Assembly: GCA_027451445.1 (NCBI GenBank)
Contig: DAIDJG010000385.1
Span: forward strand, 1 to 36,733
Length of the DNA stretch: 36,733 nt
From: Singulisphaera sp.
GTDB lineage: Bacteria > Planctomycetota > Planctomycetia > Isosphaerales > Isosphaeraceae
Direction of reading: 5' to 3'
Under the pieces are notes generated by a model that did not search any database, was not told where the DNA came from, and was given only the letters and a program-made list of their open reading frames with translations. The position numbers were made by a program, and so were the translations under genes. Each line of letters opens with the position of its first letter. The first letter of the stretch is position 1. Positions 11,554 through 17,790 of this stretch are shown piece after piece.

Positions 11554-12417
11554 ATGTCCCACGATCCCTTGGTGTCGACCGACTGGCTTGCGGCTCACCT
11601 AAGCGATCCCAAGGTGCGCGTCGTCGACATGCGAGGTTACGTCACGACGCGCGTCGTGGAACCGGGGGTCGAGGAGGCGACGTATCGGGGTGCCGAAGAA
11701 GAGTACCTCAACAGCCACATTCCCGGCGCGGTCTACATCGACTGGACCCGTGACATCGTCGACGTGAACGACCCCGTCCCGGCACAAATTGCTCCTCCCT
11801 CGGAGTTTGCCCGCGCCATGGAGGAACGCGGAATCGGCGACGATACCCACGTCGTCGCCGTCGACCACATGGGCCGGCAATTTGCCACCCGGCTCTGGTG
11901 GGCCTTGACCTACTACGGGCACGACGCCGTCAGCGTCCTCGACGGTGGCTGGAATCGCTGGGTCGAAGAAGAGCGACCGGAGGAAAGCGGACCCGTCATG
12001 GTGGCACCCGCGACCTTCACGCCTCGCCCTCGCCCCGACCAGCGAGCGACTGCCGAACAGGTTCAGTCCTGGCTTGGACGGCCCGATTTGCAACTCATCG
12101 ATGCGCGTGACGCCGGCCAGTACACGGGGGCGCGACGGCGCGGTCCGCGAGGCGGACATATCCCGGGGGCTGTGAATTTGCCGCGAGAGGTGTTCTACGA
12201 CGAAGCCGGAACGTTCCTCCCCTTGGAGGAGATCCGCCGTCGCGTTAGCGAGCAGGGAATCCTCCCCGACCGACCCACGGTTGCCTACTGTAACGGCGGT
12301 GTCGCCGCGACCGTTGTGCTGTTCCAACTTGCCCGGCTCGGCTATCCACGACTCACCAACTACGACGGGTCCTGGAACGAGTGGAGCGGACGCTTCGACC
12401 TACCCGTTGAACCCTAA
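11554..12417 (+). CDS. Two-domain sulfurtransferase (rhodanese family)
   Basis: A 287-residue protein with two rhodanese domains. The first (about 5-135) has SHIPGAVYIDWTRDI and VLDGGWNRW but an Asp in place of the active cysteine (VVAVDHMGRQFA), as is usual. The second (about 160-285) has LIDARDAGQYTG, GGHIPGAVNLPRE and the catalytic Cys246 in AYCNGGVAAT, then YDGSWNEW. It would transfer sulfane sulfur from thiosulfate or 3-mercaptopyruvate to cyanide or thiol acceptors. The CNGGVA loop does not decide between the two donors. There is no signal peptide. GGAG lies about ten bases before ATG 11554. It is a single gene, with 236 bases before the molybdenum operon. Confidence 0.92.
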   Translation: MSHDPLVSTDWLAAHLSDPKVRVVDMRGYVTTRVVEPGVEEATYRGAEEEYLNSHIPGAVYIDWTRDIVDVNDPVPAQIAPPSEFARAMEERGIGDDTHVVAVDHMGRQFATRLWWALTYYGHDAVSVLDGGWNRWVEEERPEESGPVMVAPATFTPRPRPDQRATAEQVQSWLGRPDLQLIDARDAGQYTGARRRGPRGGHIPGAVNLPREVFYDEAGTFLPLEEIRRRVSEQGILPDRPTVAYCNGGVAATVVLFQLARLGYPRLTNYDGSWNEWSGRFDLPVEP

Positions 12418-12637
12418 TGCGCCGTACAACGTCACGGGTACGACACTCCTTTTTCTCTATTCTGCCCGGGTTCTCTGATTGACGTAATTGTCCTTCGTCG
12501 ACAAGTGAGACTCTCACGAAAATGGCCGGGACCGACGGACCAGATGCTTGCGAAGACGCGGCGCGATCGCAATAGTGCAAGCTTTCCGCTCGAGGCTTGG
12601 CGGCCCGCCTTGGACGCGCACTCGGGCTGGAGAAATC

Positions 12638-12655
12638 GGGGAGAGATGCTCCATG
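12638..12655 (+). promoter_or_regulatory. Ribosome binding site fixing the start of the [2Fe-2S] subunit
   Basis: GGGGAGAG at 12638-12645 precedes ATG 12653 by seven bases. The frame is open 35 codons further up, but those codons lack a binding site, and the Tat signal begins shortly after ATG 12653. Confidence 0.85.
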
Positions 12656-13282
12656 GCAGCACACGATTTGAAAGATGACGCTGTGCGCGGACACAGTCGC
12701 CGCGACTTCTTGCGCGGGTCGAGCGTCGCCGCAGCGACGGCGGTCTTGACTGGCCAGGCGACCACGGCGATCGAAGAAGCGAAAGCCGCCGAGAGCGAGC
12801 CGAAGGTTCTCTCGGGTGAGCTGAAGATCACGCTTCAGGTCAACGGCGAATCGCGTTCCTGCACCGTCGAGCCGCGGAGCACGTTGCTGGACACGCTCCG
12901 GCACCGGCTCGACGTGACGGGCCCCAAGCGGGTGTGCGACCGCGCGAGCTGCGGGGCGTGCACGACGATCGTCGACGGTGTACCCGTCTACTCTTGCACC
13001 ACGCTGGCGGTGGCCTGTCAGGGCAAGAAGATCGAGACCCTGGAAAGCTTCGACACCGGTCCGGCGGGCGTTCCCCACGCGTTTCATCAGCACGACGGGC
13101 TGATGTGCGGCTATTGCACGCCCGGCTTTGTGACCGCGTGCAAGGCGCTGCTGGACAAGAACCCGAACCCGACGCTCGACGAAGTGAGGCGTGGGCTTGA
13201 CGGCAACATCTGCCGCTGTGGCACGTACATTGGCGTCCTCGAAGCGGCCCTGGCCGCGGCCAAAGCGATGAAAGGAGCCTGA
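12653..13282 (+). CDS. Tat-exported [2Fe-2S] subunit of a xanthine dehydrogenase-family molybdenum hydroxylase
   Basis: A 209-residue electron-transfer subunit. A twin-arginine signal SRRDFLRG (Arg16-Arg17) and a short hydrophobic alanine-rich stretch point to export with cofactor already in place. The plant-type ferredoxin cluster has Cys95, Cys100, Cys103 and Cys115. The second, helical cluster has Cys152, Cys155, Cys187 and Cys189 (GYCTPGF and NICRCGTY). Both [2Fe-2S] sites are complete. It would pass electrons from the molybdenum centre to FAD. The gene is the first of four, with the catalytic subunit starting only three bases after its stop. The partner subunits lack signals and probably ride along with this one. 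The organic substrate (aldehyde, xanthine or N-heterocycle) is not evident. Confidence 0.93.
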   Translation: MAAHDLKDDAVRGHSRRDFLRGSSVAAATAVLTGQATTAIEEAKAAESEPKVLSGELKITLQVNGESRSCTVEPRSTLLDTLRHRLDVTGPKRVCDRASCGACTTIVDGVPVYSCTTLAVACQGKKIETLESFDTGPAGVPHAFHQHDGLMCGYCTPGFVTACKALLDKNPNPTLDEVRRGLDGNICRCGTYIGVLEAALAAAKAMKGA

Positions 13283-13285
13283 CCC

Positions 13286-15457
13286 ATGGCTGCTTGGCCC
13301 AAAGAACCTCGGCTGATCGGGACCAAGGTCCCTCGCCTTGACGGACTTGCCAAAGCCTCGGGCAAGGCCAAGTATCCGTCCGACGTCCGTCCTGAAGGCA
13401 CGCTCTTTGGCGTGGTGCTCTATAGCCCGCACGCCAACGCCACGGTGAAGTCGATCGACACCGCCGCTGCTGAGAAGATGCCGGGCGTCAAGGGGATCGT
13501 CGTCATCGCAGGTCAAGGGAAGAAGCTGCGATTCCAGGGGGACGACATCGCCATCGTTGCTGCGGAGACCGAGGAGCAGGCCCGCGACGCTGTCCGCGCG
13601 ATCAAGGTCGACTACGAAGTGCTGCCGCACTGCGTCACTGAATCGCAATCAATGGACGAAAAGGCGCCCCAAGTCTTCGACGGCGGCAACGTTCGGAAAG
13701 CCCGTGCGATCGTGAAGGGCAAACCCGAAGAGGCCCTGGAGAAGGCCGACGTCGTGGTCGAAGGGACGTACTCGCTGCCGGTGATCACGCACGTCTGCCT
13801 CGAGCCGCACGGCCTCACCGCGCAGGCCGAAGGCTCGTCCAAGATCACGGCCTGGGCGAGCACCCAGGCGGTGACTGTCGTGGCTGGCGAGCTTGCCGGT
13901 TCGTTCAACATCTCCCCTGCGGACGTCACGGTCTTGACGGAAGTCATGGGTGGTGGATTCGGCTCGAAGTTCGGCGCCGATATCTGGGGCCGGACCGCCG
14001 CAGAGCTGTCAAAGAAGTGCGGAGGACGTCCGGTCAAGGTCTTCCTCGACCGCGCTCAAGAGCACCTGGCGGCGGGCAATCGTCCGAGCGCGACCGGTCA
14101 CGTCAAGCTCGGCGCGAGCAAGGATGGGAAGCTCGTGGCGATGATCGCCGAGACATACGGAACCGGTGGCGTGCGCGGCGGCTCCAATTTCCCGCTGCCT
14201 TACGTCTACGACCTGAAAAACTCGTCGCGAGCCCACGCCGAGGTCTCAGTGAACGCCGGCGGTGCTCGCGCAATGCGCGCTCCGGGCCACCCGCAAGGTT
14301 GCGCGATCATGGAGGCGGCGCTGGACGACCTGGCCGCCAAGCTCGGGATGGATCCCGTCGAGATCCGGGTCAAGAACCTGGCCGAGGTGGACAACGTCCG
14401 AGGCGGCCGGCAGGGCGAGACCATCAACCGGACCCCGATGTACGAGGCCCAGTTGAAGCTCGGGGCCGAACTGATCGGCTGGCGCGACAAGTACAAGCCG
14501 CGTGGCGAGAACGGCAAGGGTGTCGTCAAGCGCGGACTTGGCGTGGCGCTCCACCAGTGGGGCGGCGGTGGTGCTGCGGACAAGCAAGTCTCCTGCACGA
14601 TCAACCCCGATGGGTCCGTTGAGATCAAGAGTGCGACGCAGGACATCGGTACCGGTGCCCGTACGATCCTGGCGATGATCACTGCCGAGGTCCTGGGGCT
14701 GAAGCCCACCGACATCAAGTCGAACATCGGCAATTCGACATTTCCGCCCGGTCAGTCGTCCGGCGGCTCGACGACGACCCCGTCCATGAGCCCACCCTGC
14801 CTCGCGGCAGCCACGCAAGCACGCGCCGCCTTCTTCAACAAGATCGCGCCTGCCCTCAGTACCGACGCCGAGACCCTCTCGCTCAAAGACGGGCAGGTCT
14901 GGGTCAATGGCGAACCTACCATGTCGTGGAAGGACGCTTGCCGCAAGCTGGGCATGGCGTCGATTTCCGAGACCGGCAAATTCGCGGACGGTTTGTCCTC
15001 AGTCGGCGTTGGCGGATGCCAGTTCGCCGAAGTCGAGGTCGACACTGAGACGGGCGTGGTCCGGGTCAAGAAGATCGTCGCGATCCAGGACAGCGGGCTG
15101 ATCATCGACAAGCTCACCTGGGAGAGCCAGGTCTACGGCGGAGTGATCGGCGGCCTGAACTACGGCCTGTTCGAGGAACGCGTCATGGACCCGACCACGG
15201 GCGTGATGCTGAACCCCGACATGGAGCTGTACAAGCTCGCGGGCGCCTCGGACATCCCGGAAATCATCGTCCGGGCCTACGAGACCGAGGAGATGAAAAA
15301 CCGCGGCGTGATCGGCGTGGGCGAACCCCCGACGATCGCCACCGCCGCCGCCATTGCGAATGCCGTCGCCAACGCCATTGGCGTCCGAGTCCCCGATTGG
15401 CCAATGTCACCCCGGAACGTTCTCAACGCCCTGGCTTCCAAAGAAGGGAAGGCGTAA
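13286..15457 (+). CDS. Molybdopterin-binding catalytic subunit, xanthine dehydrogenase / aldehyde oxidase family
   Basis: A 723-residue large subunit with the family's usual length. In order: IGTKVPRLDGLAKASGKAKY, the small a/b hammerhead domain to about residue 110, GGGFGSKFG (molybdopterin-binding glycine loop), NAGGARAMRAPGHPQG, an SGGSTTT loop, and GVGEPPTIATAAAIANAV with the catalytic Glu at about residue 680. These motifs place it in the MoCo hydroxylase family, which inserts water-derived oxygen into C-H bonds. There is no signal peptide. It begins three bases after the [2Fe-2S] subunit, and the FAD subunit begins four bases after its stop, so the stoichiometric complex is encoded as one unit. 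Family motifs alone do not reveal the substrate. Confidence 0.93.
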   Translation: MAAWPKEPRLIGTKVPRLDGLAKASGKAKYPSDVRPEGTLFGVVLYSPHANATVKSIDTAAAEKMPGVKGIVVIAGQGKKLRFQGDDIAIVAAETEEQARDAVRAIKVDYEVLPHCVTESQSMDEKAPQVFDGGNVRKARAIVKGKPEEALEKADVVVEGTYSLPVITHVCLEPHGLTAQAEGSSKITAWASTQAVTVVAGELAGSFNISPADVTVLTEVMGGGFGSKFGADIWGRTAAELSKKCGGRPVKVFLDRAQEHLAAGNRPSATGHVKLGASKDGKLVAMIAETYGTGGVRGGSNFPLPYVYDLKNSSRAHAEVSVNAGGARAMRAPGHPQGCAIMEAALDDLAAKLGMDPVEIRVKNLAEVDNVRGGRQGETINRTPMYEAQLKLGAELIGWRDKYKPRGENGKGVVKRGLGVALHQWGGGGAADKQVSCTINPDGSVEIKSATQDIGTGARTILAMITAEVLGLKPTDIKSNIGNSTFPPGQSSGGSTTTPSMSPPCLAAATQARAAFFNKIAPALSTDAETLSLKDGQVWVNGEPTMSWKDACRKLGMASISETGKFADGLSSVGVGGCQFAEVEVDTETGVVRVKKIVAIQDSGLIIDKLTWESQVYGGVIGGLNYGLFEERVMDPTTGVMLNPDMELYKLAGASDIPEIIVRAYETEEMKNRGVIGVGEPPTIATAAAIANAVANAIGVRVPDWPMSPRNVLNALASKEGKA

Positions 15458-15461
15458 ACCT

Positions 15462-16448
15462 ATGAAAGCTTTTGACTACGCCGCCCCGACGAGCGTCGCC
15501 GACGCTCTCAAACTCATGGAGCCGCCTCACACCGCGGCGCTCTCGGGCGGCACCGATCTGATCAATCGGATGAAGGACTACGTCTCGAGCCCCGAGCGCG
15601 TGGTTTACCTCAAGGACATCGATGCGCTCGAGTCCATTGAATCGAGCAGCAAGGGCGTGTCCATCGGCGCAGGCGCGACCCTGGCCGCTTTGCTCGAGCA
15701 CGGTGAGATCAAGAAGACCTATCCCTCGCTCTGGAAGGCCGCCTACGAAGTGGCGACCCCCCAGATCAGGAACATGGCGACGGTGGGGGGCAACCTCCTC
15801 CAGCGCCCACGTTGCTGGTACTATCGCGCGGGCAACGGTCTACTGGCGCTCAAGGATGGCAAAAGCCTGGTGCGCGAGGGCGACAACCGGTTCCACGCCA
15901 TCTTCATGACCGACGGCGATGCCCTGTTCGTCAATCCGTCAAGCCTTGCAGTGCCCTTGATCGCCCTGGGCGCCAAGGCCACGATCCTGGGGCCGAAAGG
16001 GGAGCGTACGGTTCCCGTCGCGGAGCTGTATCGCGTGCCCAAGGGCAGCCAGGAGCGAGAACTGACCGTCCAGCACGGCGAGATCCTGACCAAGGTCGTT
16101 GTACCCGCGACACACGCGAAGAACGCGTCGTACGAGGCGCGGCACAAGCAGGCGCACGACTGGCCGCTTGCGCTCGCTTCCGTGGCGCTGGAGATGGACG
16201 GTCAAAAGGTCGGTTCGGCGCGCGTGGTGCTCGGCGCCGTGGCGCCGGTCCCCCTGCGGAGCGAGGCGGCGGAAAAGGCCATCGAAGGCAAGGCTCTGAA
16301 CCACGAGTCAGCGACTGCGGCCGGTGACGCGGCGGTCAAGGACGCCAAGCCGCTGTCGATGAACGCCTACAAGGTCCAGTTGACCAAGGTCGCCGTCAAG
16401 CGCGCGTTGCTCGCTGCGGTGGGCGATCGTTACTGGGAGGAGGGGTGA
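15462..16448 (+). CDS. FAD-binding subunit of the molybdenum hydroxylase (CoxM/PaoB-like)
   Basis: A 328-residue FAD subunit. Its N-domain has the AALSGGTDLINRMKD pyrophosphate loop. The second FAD motif is IRNMATVGGNLLQRPRCWYY (residues about 101-120). The CO-dehydrogenase-flavoprotein C-terminal domain follows (about 225-325). It accepts electrons from the [2Fe-2S] subunit. In PaoB-like relatives, several cysteines after QRxRC bind an extra [4Fe-4S] cluster. Here only Cys118 remains and the rest of the cysteine loop is missing, so that cluster is probably absent. The start ATG 15462 has GAAGGGAAGG upstream, overlapping the previous stop; the in-frame ATG 108 bases earlier lies inside the Mo-subunit gene. 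The stop codon touches the ribosome binding site of the next gene. Confidence 0.9.
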   Translation: MKAFDYAAPTSVADALKLMEPPHTAALSGGTDLINRMKDYVSSPERVVYLKDIDALESIESSSKGVSIGAGATLAALLEHGEIKKTYPSLWKAAYEVATPQIRNMATVGGNLLQRPRCWYYRAGNGLLALKDGKSLVREGDNRFHAIFMTDGDALFVNPSSLAVPLIALGAKATILGPKGERTVPVAELYRVPKGSQERELTVQHGEILTKVVVPATHAKNASYEARHKQAHDWPLALASVALEMDGQKVGSARVVLGAVAPVPLRSEAAEKAIEGKALNHESATAAGDAAVKDAKPLSMNAYKVQLTKVAVKRALLAAVGDRYWEEG

Positions 16449-16457
16449 CCCGCCATG
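16436..16457 (+). promoter_or_regulatory. Strong ribosome binding site of the cysteine-rich small gene
   Basis: GGAGGAGGGG at 16436-16445 ends at the FAD-subunit stop (TGA 16446-16448), nine bases before ATG 16455. It is the longest purine binding site in the operon and argues that the 77-residue gene is truly translated. Confidence 0.85.
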
Positions 16458-16688
16458 TCGAGCGCCGACTCTACGGAACTCCCCATCGTCGAAACGTCCG
16501 TCCCCTGCCGTCACCTGCGGAACAAGGGGATGTACGTCTACACGGACGGTAGCGGTGAGTCGCACGGTGACTACGACAACACGATTTTCTGGTGCTTGAA
16601 GACCATGACAGGCTTCGGGCCCGATGACACGTACGTGGGTCGTGAAGAGTGCTGTAACGTCAACCGGGCGTGCTTCGAGCCGCTTTGA
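16455..16688 (+). CDS. Cysteine-rich small protein of unknown function at the end of the molybdenum hydroxylase operon
   Basis: A 77-residue protein that I cannot assign to a named family. It has five cysteines (Cys18, Cys47, Cys66, Cys67, Cys73) and two histidines (His20, His37), arranged as PCRHLRNKGMYVY, a GDYDNTIFWCLKTMTGFGPD centre and REECCNVNRACFEPL. There is no signal peptide or membrane segment. The aromatic, acidic middle and paired cysteines suggest a small metal- or cluster-binding fold. It begins six bases after the FAD-subunit stop with a very strong ribosome binding site, and the operon terminator follows 28 bases after its stop, so it belongs to the hydroxylase operon. It could be a fourth subunit, an assembly factor or a metal chaperone; these roles are inference. 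Confidence 0.8.
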   Translation: MSSADSTELPIVETSVPCRHLRNKGMYVYTDGSGESHGDYDNTIFWCLKTMTGFGPDDTYVGREECCNVNRACFEPL

Positions 16689-16715: not shown

Positions 16716-16754
16716 AAGGCCGGGAGGGAATCGTATTCCTCCCGGCCTGTTTTA
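16716..16754 (+). terminator. Rho-independent terminator of the molybdenum hydroxylase operon
   Basis: AGGCCGGGAGGGAAT pairs with ATTCCTCCCGGCCT around CGT, with a single bulged G. This gives a stem of about 14 bp at 16716-16747, followed by GTTTTAC. It lies 28 bases past the stop of the small cysteine-rich gene. Confidence 0.9.
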
Positions 16755-16756
16755 CT

Positions 16757-17041
16757 CATGCGGACGAAGCAGCTAAGGTGCTGCTGGAAGTCGAAGGTGG
16801 GGGTGCTCGGCGACCCGGAGTTGGAACCGCCCGGGAAGCAGCCGTTGGCCGACTCGTAATGGTTGGCCGCGAGGGCGATCTGCTTGAGGTTGTTCGTGCA
16901 GTTGGCGCGTCATGCGGCCTCACGAGCCGCCTGCACGGCGGGGAGCAGCAAGGTGATCAATACGGCGATGATCGCGATCACGACCAACAGTTCGATGAGC
17001 GTAACAGCACGGTTCCGTTTTCGAGCACTCGTGGGGAATAT
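16757..17041 (-). pseudogene. Decayed DUF1559 / type II pseudopilin-like gene (N-terminal fragment)
   Basis: The minus-strand frame reads [20 protein letters not shown], then a hydrophobic helix ending in [13 protein letters not shown]. This is the prepilin cleavage/methylation site and helix of DUF1559 proteins, which are abundant in planctomycetes. A TGA at 16912-16910 then interrupts the frame where the family has Arg (a CGA-to-TGA change would explain it). The same frame continues RANCTNNLKQIALAANHYES and ends at FVRM, next to the operon terminator; the C-terminal 200 or so residues are missing. The place of the usual start codon reads ATA (17041-17039). The start change, the internal stop and the 3' loss together make it a pseudogene. 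Confidence 0.85.
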
Positions 17042-17790
17042 TCGCAGGTCTGCTGAATCCGGGTGAGGGGGAAAACGATAACGCGGACACGAATTAATTG
17101 AAACTATTTTTAATTTTGATTGATGATTGTGACGGCGTTGGGACGACGTTAAAAGCAAACTTCCCCCCTGGAAGTGCTGTGCCACCCTGCACCGGTTGTT
17201 AAATGCACTTGAAGATTTCGTGAATTCGACATTTTTTAAGCCGCTTGATCGCCGCGAGCGACACCCCGGCGCCCTCCAGACAGTCGGCACGCTGGCGAGT
17301 GTGACGGAACCGCCTCAAAGCGGAATAGGCACGTGGGATACACCGAGATGCACGGACAGCCTCAAGCACGCACTGAAGTCGGCCAGCCGGCCTTTTGGAC
17401 GGGTTTGGAAGACGTGGACAAAATCAATTGACGAGCGTGAAAGTACCCGACGAGCCGAGCGCCGCTCAACGGAAGGCGAACGACGATGGTACCGCGAGGC
17501 ATTGAGCGGCGCACGTAAACCTTTCGACCCGCCGAGAGCGAAGAGTGTTCATCATCCAAGTCGAGGCGCGAACTGGTCGCTTAGCGATCTGTAAAGCGCA
17601 ACGTCCCGCACGCGGATCGTCGATCCGCCGTCCTGGAAGGCATCACGAACGATGGCCCGCCCGAAACCGATCGCCACTCGTAAGCTATCTGCAACGTGCT
17701 TGGTAGGACGAACAGCCCTGCGGTCGCGGAGGATTCCGCGCTGGACCGTGCGCTCCAGCGATCACGTCTTGAGCTATTGCGGGTTGAGAA
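17042..17790. other. Intergenic stretch of about 750 bases, probable decayed DNA
   Basis: I see no supported gene. A patch with more A and T (about 17060-17160) is followed by sequence of mixed composition with only short open frames. One minus-strand frame (17554-17764) stays open for 69 codons without an ATG and is discussed under rejected items. Because pseudogenes lie on both sides, this is probably eroded coding sequence. Confidence 0.5.

Follow-up and report, generated by a model that had tools for sequence, protein, structure and literature searches.

The window, by which we mean the whole 36,733-nucleotide stretch that was analysed, belongs to a 10.9 Mb genome of the Planctomycetota family Isosphaeraceae. 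It contains an operon with the following features.

12653..13282, + strand: [2Fe-2S] (FeS) subunit with the Tat signal SRRDFLRG; domains Fer2_2 and TAT_signal; SD -8.1 kcal/mol
13286..15457, + strand: molybdopterin-binding Mo subunit; domains MoCoBD_1 and MoCoBD_2
15462..16448, + strand: FAD subunit; domains FAD_binding_5 and CO_deh_flav_C
16435..16445, + strand: ribosome-binding site of the small gene, GGGAGGAGGGG, within the last FAD codons; -12.6 kcal/mol to the anti-SD
16455..16688, + strand: small gene, an ORF of 77 amino acids and the fourth gene of the operon; C18, C47, C66 and C73 invariant
16717..16748, + strand: intrinsic terminator ending the operon; 13-bp stem with 9 G-C pairs, then GTTTT

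The enzyme itself is of a known kind, a Pao-like exported trimer of the xanthine-oxidase family. Pfam domains of this type are present on all three large subunits, and the gene order FeS-Mo-FAD-small is shared by the window and its relatives; the Mo subunit scored below every NCBIfam equivalog cut-off. The mechanically called ORF of the FeS subunit spans 12548-13282 and begins at TTG 12548. However, the gene probably starts at ATG 12653, since this codon has a ribosome-binding site and leads directly into the Tat motif. The stop codon of the FAD gene occupies 16446-16448, and the small gene starts 6 bases further on. The small gene pairs far more strongly with the anti-SD than the other three genes of the operon do (-12.6 versus -7.5 to -8.1 kcal/mol), and its ribosome-binding site ranks first among the 413 ATGs of the window; TACTGGGAGG is retained ahead of the small gene in many Isosphaeraceae. 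A site of this strength suggests that the small protein is made in subunit-like, stoichiometric amounts. The initial annotation had described a fourth gene of a molybdenum hydroxylase operon with the strongest ribosome-binding site of that operon and a terminator behind it, and the domain assignments, the pairing energies and the hairpin bear this out.

In 19 loci examined with up to 8 kb of flanking DNA, no other gene accompanies the operon at a similar frequency. Ahead of the operon, at 11554-12417, the window carries a rhodanese-type sulfurtransferase resembling 3-mercaptopyruvate sulfurtransferase, and a homologue lies inside the fetched operon flank in 7 of 19 Isosphaeraceae-type loci; this protein could supply sulfur for the Mo cofactor, or it may be no more than a neighbour. 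Convergent with the operon, the - strand at 16756-17290 probably holds a decayed pilin-like gene, in which an N-terminal methylation motif is followed by an immediate stop. We take this gene to be of the DUF1559 type.

The small gene is a real protein-coding gene. A dN/dS of about 0.1 against Isosphaeraceae orthologues indicates a protein under purifying selection and, together with the 110 homologues that were collected, rules out a chance ORF. In the alignment of these homologues (A4, n=110) C18, C47, C66 and C73 are invariant in all 110 sequences, as are R71 and the start residue, while K24, L21, T50, G55, P56 and D57 are nearly so. The cysteines are spaced as C-X23-37-C-X17-19-C-X5-7-C, with no CxxC pair, and all four hold even among homologues that are only about 25% identical. 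The N-terminus varies in length and sequence, and inspection by eye revealed no signal-like segment there. The initial annotation had read the five cysteines and two histidines of the window protein as a sign of metal or cluster binding. All seven residues are present and a cysteine site is plausible, but only four of the cysteines are conserved (C67 occurs in 11 of 110 homologues) and neither histidine is invariant. Additional cysteines do occur elsewhere in the family; they shift in position and mostly lie a few residues from one of the four invariant ones (loci L056-L167). At least one is found in 73 of 74 small proteins encoded beside FAD subunits that bear the [4Fe-4S] loop cysteines and in only 19 of 34 beside FAD subunits that have lost them, counts in which the rows are not phylogenetically independent.

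Comparison with known families yielded no convincing relative, in agreement with the earlier remark that no named subunit of this kind is known. The window protein matched nothing in Pfam, NCBIfam or the PDB, and single homologues gave only isolated weak matches in these collections. The XdhC_CoxI domain (PF02625) is absent. The absence of CxxC knuckles, paired in zinc ribbons and rubredoxins, also argues against a familiar knuckle of either type, and no PDB match to such proteins was obtained by sequence or by fold. One of the 110 homologues matches Cys_rich_CWC (PF14375) with an E value of 0.0033, whereas the window protein and the other homologues (109/110) do not; this match is taken as chance or convergence. 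AlphaFold2 gave a pLDDT of 48.7 with 26 close sequences and a mean of 75.2 with 110 diverse ones, in the latter case with block means of 84-92 over residues 41-77, so that the C-terminal half is predicted fairly confidently. A Foldseek search with the predicted model retrieved nothing matching from the PDB, a method that is weak on tiny, coil-rich proteins. Model and search result thus allow a new small fold but do not prove one. In the open-access literature we found no paper describing such a small protein. The component is therefore undescribed in Pfam, NCBIfam, the PDB and open-access papers, but it may still stand in other catalogues, as there are large collections of uncharacterised families that come from uncultivated taxa (PMC10849945).

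The small gene was detected in 54 of 99 relatives, with Singulisphaera acidiphila and Tautonia among the loci of the same family that carry a homologue, and in 95 of 392 Planctomycetota genomes drawn evenly across the phylum, about a quarter. Among 289 Verrucomicrobiota genomes there were only two strong matches, with weak ones in G491, G494 and G674 (E 0.005-0.008), and plasmids gave no match above noise. These profile searches covered Planctomycetota and Verrucomicrobiota; the contig scan across all phyla used only short peptides of the window protein. No convincing homologue away from the operon was found in the 99 relatives, the 392 Planctomycetota or the 289 Verrucomicrobiota genomes. In all of the Isosphaeraceae loci that were examined, the FAD gene lies immediately upstream, with the Mo and FeS genes ahead of it where the contig reaches that far, and divergent loci show the same FAD-then-small arrangement with Mo and FeS further upstream. 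The gaps between the FAD and small genes are short and often are overlaps of -4 or -1, as expected of translation coupling. Apparent natural fusions of the two genes, which would have served as Rosetta-stone evidence, were rejected, the long frames being out-of-frame readings of GC-rich DNA.

The linkage holds in both directions. A FAD-subunit profile run on the 392 genomes separated a high class of 111 matches at or above 299 bits from a lower class at or below 275 bits. Of the 96 small-protein matches in these genomes, 93 have a high-class FAD gene directly upstream and one (G320) follows a FAD gene that the contig end truncates; the remaining two, G256 (E 0.006) and G356 (E 0.009), were discarded as spurious, both the motif and the FAD neighbour being absent. 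All 94 genuine matches thus directly follow a FAD subunit of one clade; a family found mostly away from molybdenum hydroxylase genes, which would have counted against the initial annotation, was not observed. Conversely, 93 of the 111 high-class FAD genes showed the small gene at once. Reading the DNA downstream of the other 18 gave seven with the gene, two cut by contig ends and nine without it, so that 100 of 109 readable clade members carry the small gene. No small-protein match was found behind a lower-class FAD gene in the 392 genomes, and the two lower-class operons that were read (L177, L178) have the E. coli-like order FeS-FAD-Mo.

The nine clade operons without the small gene (L093, L094, L098, L099 and L106, which represent one genus, and L090, L092, L096 and L105) all retain the FAD-loop cysteines. 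Six were read further; all keep the Mo and FAD genes, and at least five keep a Tat-bearing FeS gene. Judged from this gene content, the small protein is dispensable in some lineages, and since most of the operons read further keep the Tat-bearing FeS subunit, export in these lineages probably does not depend strictly on the small protein. An SRRxFLKG-type Tat motif is present on the FeS subunit in 65 of 72 related loci, and the other seven are paralogues, cut genes or mis-framed matches. PaoB and PaoC of the E. coli enzyme PaoABC have no signal of their own and are exported as hitchhikers, using the Tat signal that PaoA carries (PMC4273604). By analogy, the small protein could take the same route out.

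When aligned to 1rm6_B, 5y6q_B and 5g5g_B, which define the four [4Fe-4S] loop cysteines, the FAD subunit of the window has only C118 left (codon 15813-15815). The initial annotation had considered the small protein as a possible replacement for the missing loop, and the presence of the small gene in all 40 loop-lost rows of the FAD tree (136 rows) agrees with this. Yet the link to FAD subunits with all four loop cysteines is just as tight and extends over many families across the phylum; most of the diversity of the small-protein family lies beside such subunits, and most of the FAD clade outside the loop-lost group has all four. In the tree the loop-lost rows group together as a single clade (SH-aLRT 99), which is nested among operons that carry the small gene. 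The tree was built quickly and rooted at the midpoint, and the conclusion depends on this nesting, not on the root: the loop cysteines disappeared a single time, from a lineage in which the small gene was present beforehand, so the gene is older than the loss. The excess of small-gene presence in loop-lost over loop-bearing rows is not significant (Fisher p ~0.06, with approximate counts and rows that are not independent), and the homologues beside loop-lost FAD subunits contain fewer cysteines rather than more. Replacement of the missing loop is refuted as the origin of the gene and is highly improbable as an explanation of the protein; in a weaker version the protein would have become indispensable only once the loop was gone. 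Only two of the 40 loop-lost FAD subunits lack C118, and its persistence after the loss of the other three cluster cysteines suggests a possible role independent of the loop cluster. In some loop-lost FAD subunits (the Tautonia-like L012, L017, L018 and L022, together with L009 and L020) about 20-30 residues are inserted in the region of the cluster loop; these six loci represent one Isosphaeraceae subgroup.

In view of the above, the exported Mo enzyme probably has a fourth part that has been overlooked, or a helper dedicated to it, in the form of the small protein. The form that we favour, at a probability of roughly 0.5, is a dedicated accessory subunit of the Tat-exported xanthine-oxidase-family enzyme that has a metal or cluster site, docks on the FAD subunit and is exported with it. 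The analysis establishes the reality of the gene, its linkage, the four cysteines, the Tat signal of the partner and the greater age of the gene relative to the loop loss, whereas attachment to the FAD subunit, a bound metal, co-export and an electron role are what we infer. In this mechanism the small protein would be made right behind the FAD subunit through translation coupling and its very strong ribosome-binding site. The four invariant cysteines would hold a metal ion or an iron-sulfur cluster around which the protein folds, after which it would dock onto the FAD subunit. The complex including the small protein would then cross the membrane, hitchhiking on the FeS Tat signal like PaoB and PaoC in E. 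coli. Beyond the membrane the small protein could stabilise the flavin side of the enzyme or offer an exit for electrons from it. The nine operons of the same clade that lack the gene argue against a subunit, as do the lack of a CxxC pair and the failure of the predicted model to match anything in the PDB. A bolder version, in which a fourth subunit brings in a newly folded metal or iron-sulfur centre that extends or reroutes the flavin electrons to a periplasmic acceptor and became the sole redox site after the flavin once the [4Fe-4S] cluster was lost, seems to us doubtful.

The accessory subunit has to be weighed against a cytoplasmic maturation or quality-control factor, which would use its cysteine site to hold on to the FAD subunit, or to the trimer during assembly, until the cofactors are in and be released before Tat export. 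The two-way gene linkage fits this rival equally well, as the same linkage is expected of a maturation factor. The last-gene position recalls PaoD in paoABCD (PMC3909100), and the very small size of the protein, the lack of a recognisable signal sequence in spite of the exported enzyme and the absence of the gene from some otherwise complete operons point the same way. On the other hand, the strongest ribosome-binding site of the operon would be odd for a sub-stoichiometric chaperone, the protein has no XdhC/PaoD domain, and the genome encodes an XdhC-type chaperone elsewhere. A role restricted to inserting the [4Fe-4S] cluster of the FAD loop was rejected, as the small gene persists in all 40 rows of the loop-lost clade. 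On balance we consider a maturation factor unlikely, although it is the strongest competitor of the accessory subunit.

A further possibility is a metal-free structural subunit in which the four invariant cysteines, none of them in a CxxC pair, form two disulfides after export, the final site of the protein probably being periplasmic. However, proteins exported by Tat acquire their fold beforehand in the cytoplasm, whose reducing conditions would leave a tiny disulfide protein unfolded, and the fifth, shifting cysteine found in nearly all homologues on the loop-bearing side would leave an unpaired thiol; we rate this explanation as distinctly improbable. Small cysteine-rich proteins can also be regulators, and the gene could encode a metal or redox sensor or another small protein that merely shares the transcript. 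Such a regulator or bystander is very unlikely given that some 780 genome searches gave no convincing unlinked copy and that the gene is always found behind the FAD gene, often overlapping it, across deeply diverged families.

Molybdenum hydroxylases are textbook enzymes with a fixed chain of Mo, two [2Fe-2S] clusters, FAD and an optional [4Fe-4S] cluster, distributed over no more than three subunits. A fourth component that is tied to one exported enzyme lineage across a phylum, has four invariant cysteines and lacks known relatives would add a part to this well-studied enzyme family. As a target the protein is small and easy to clone, for example in the cultured Singulisphaera acidiphila (locus L032). 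The nine operons without the small gene provide a natural knockout set, and one ancestral loss of the FAD cluster combined with several lineages that lack the small gene amounts to a natural experiment on the purpose of each centre.

Among known systems, Cys_rich_CWC proteins (PF14375) are likewise small and cysteine-rich, and a CWC motif occurs in several small-protein homologues, but the four invariant cysteines of the small protein are spaced differently and include no CxxC pair. The FAD (beta) subunit of 4-hydroxybenzoyl-CoA reductase (1rm6_B) is homologous to the window FAD subunit (E 2.7e-41). Its cluster-loop cysteines match those of the loop-bearing FAD relatives in the clade, whereas three of them are gone from the window protein; for this reductase we know of no fourth small protein. 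The XdhC, CoxI and PaoD chaperones share with the small gene the position at the operon end and a dedicated partner of the xanthine-oxidase family. They differ in their PF02625 domain, which the small protein does not match, and the separate XdhC-type gene of this genome lies on contig C93. A close parallel in architecture is PaoABC of E. coli. It has the same Pfam domains on its three subunits and, as in the window operon, the Tat signal on the [2Fe-2S] subunit. PaoB (5g5g_B) is homologous to the window FAD subunit (E 1.3e-29), which differs from it in having lost three of the four loop cysteines. The Pao operon also ends in a fourth gene, but its order is FeS-FAD-Mo-PaoD instead of FeS-Mo-FAD-small, and PaoD is a 35-kDa chaperone of the XdhC family, whereas the window operon ends in a 77-residue protein of a different kind, without the XdhC domain.
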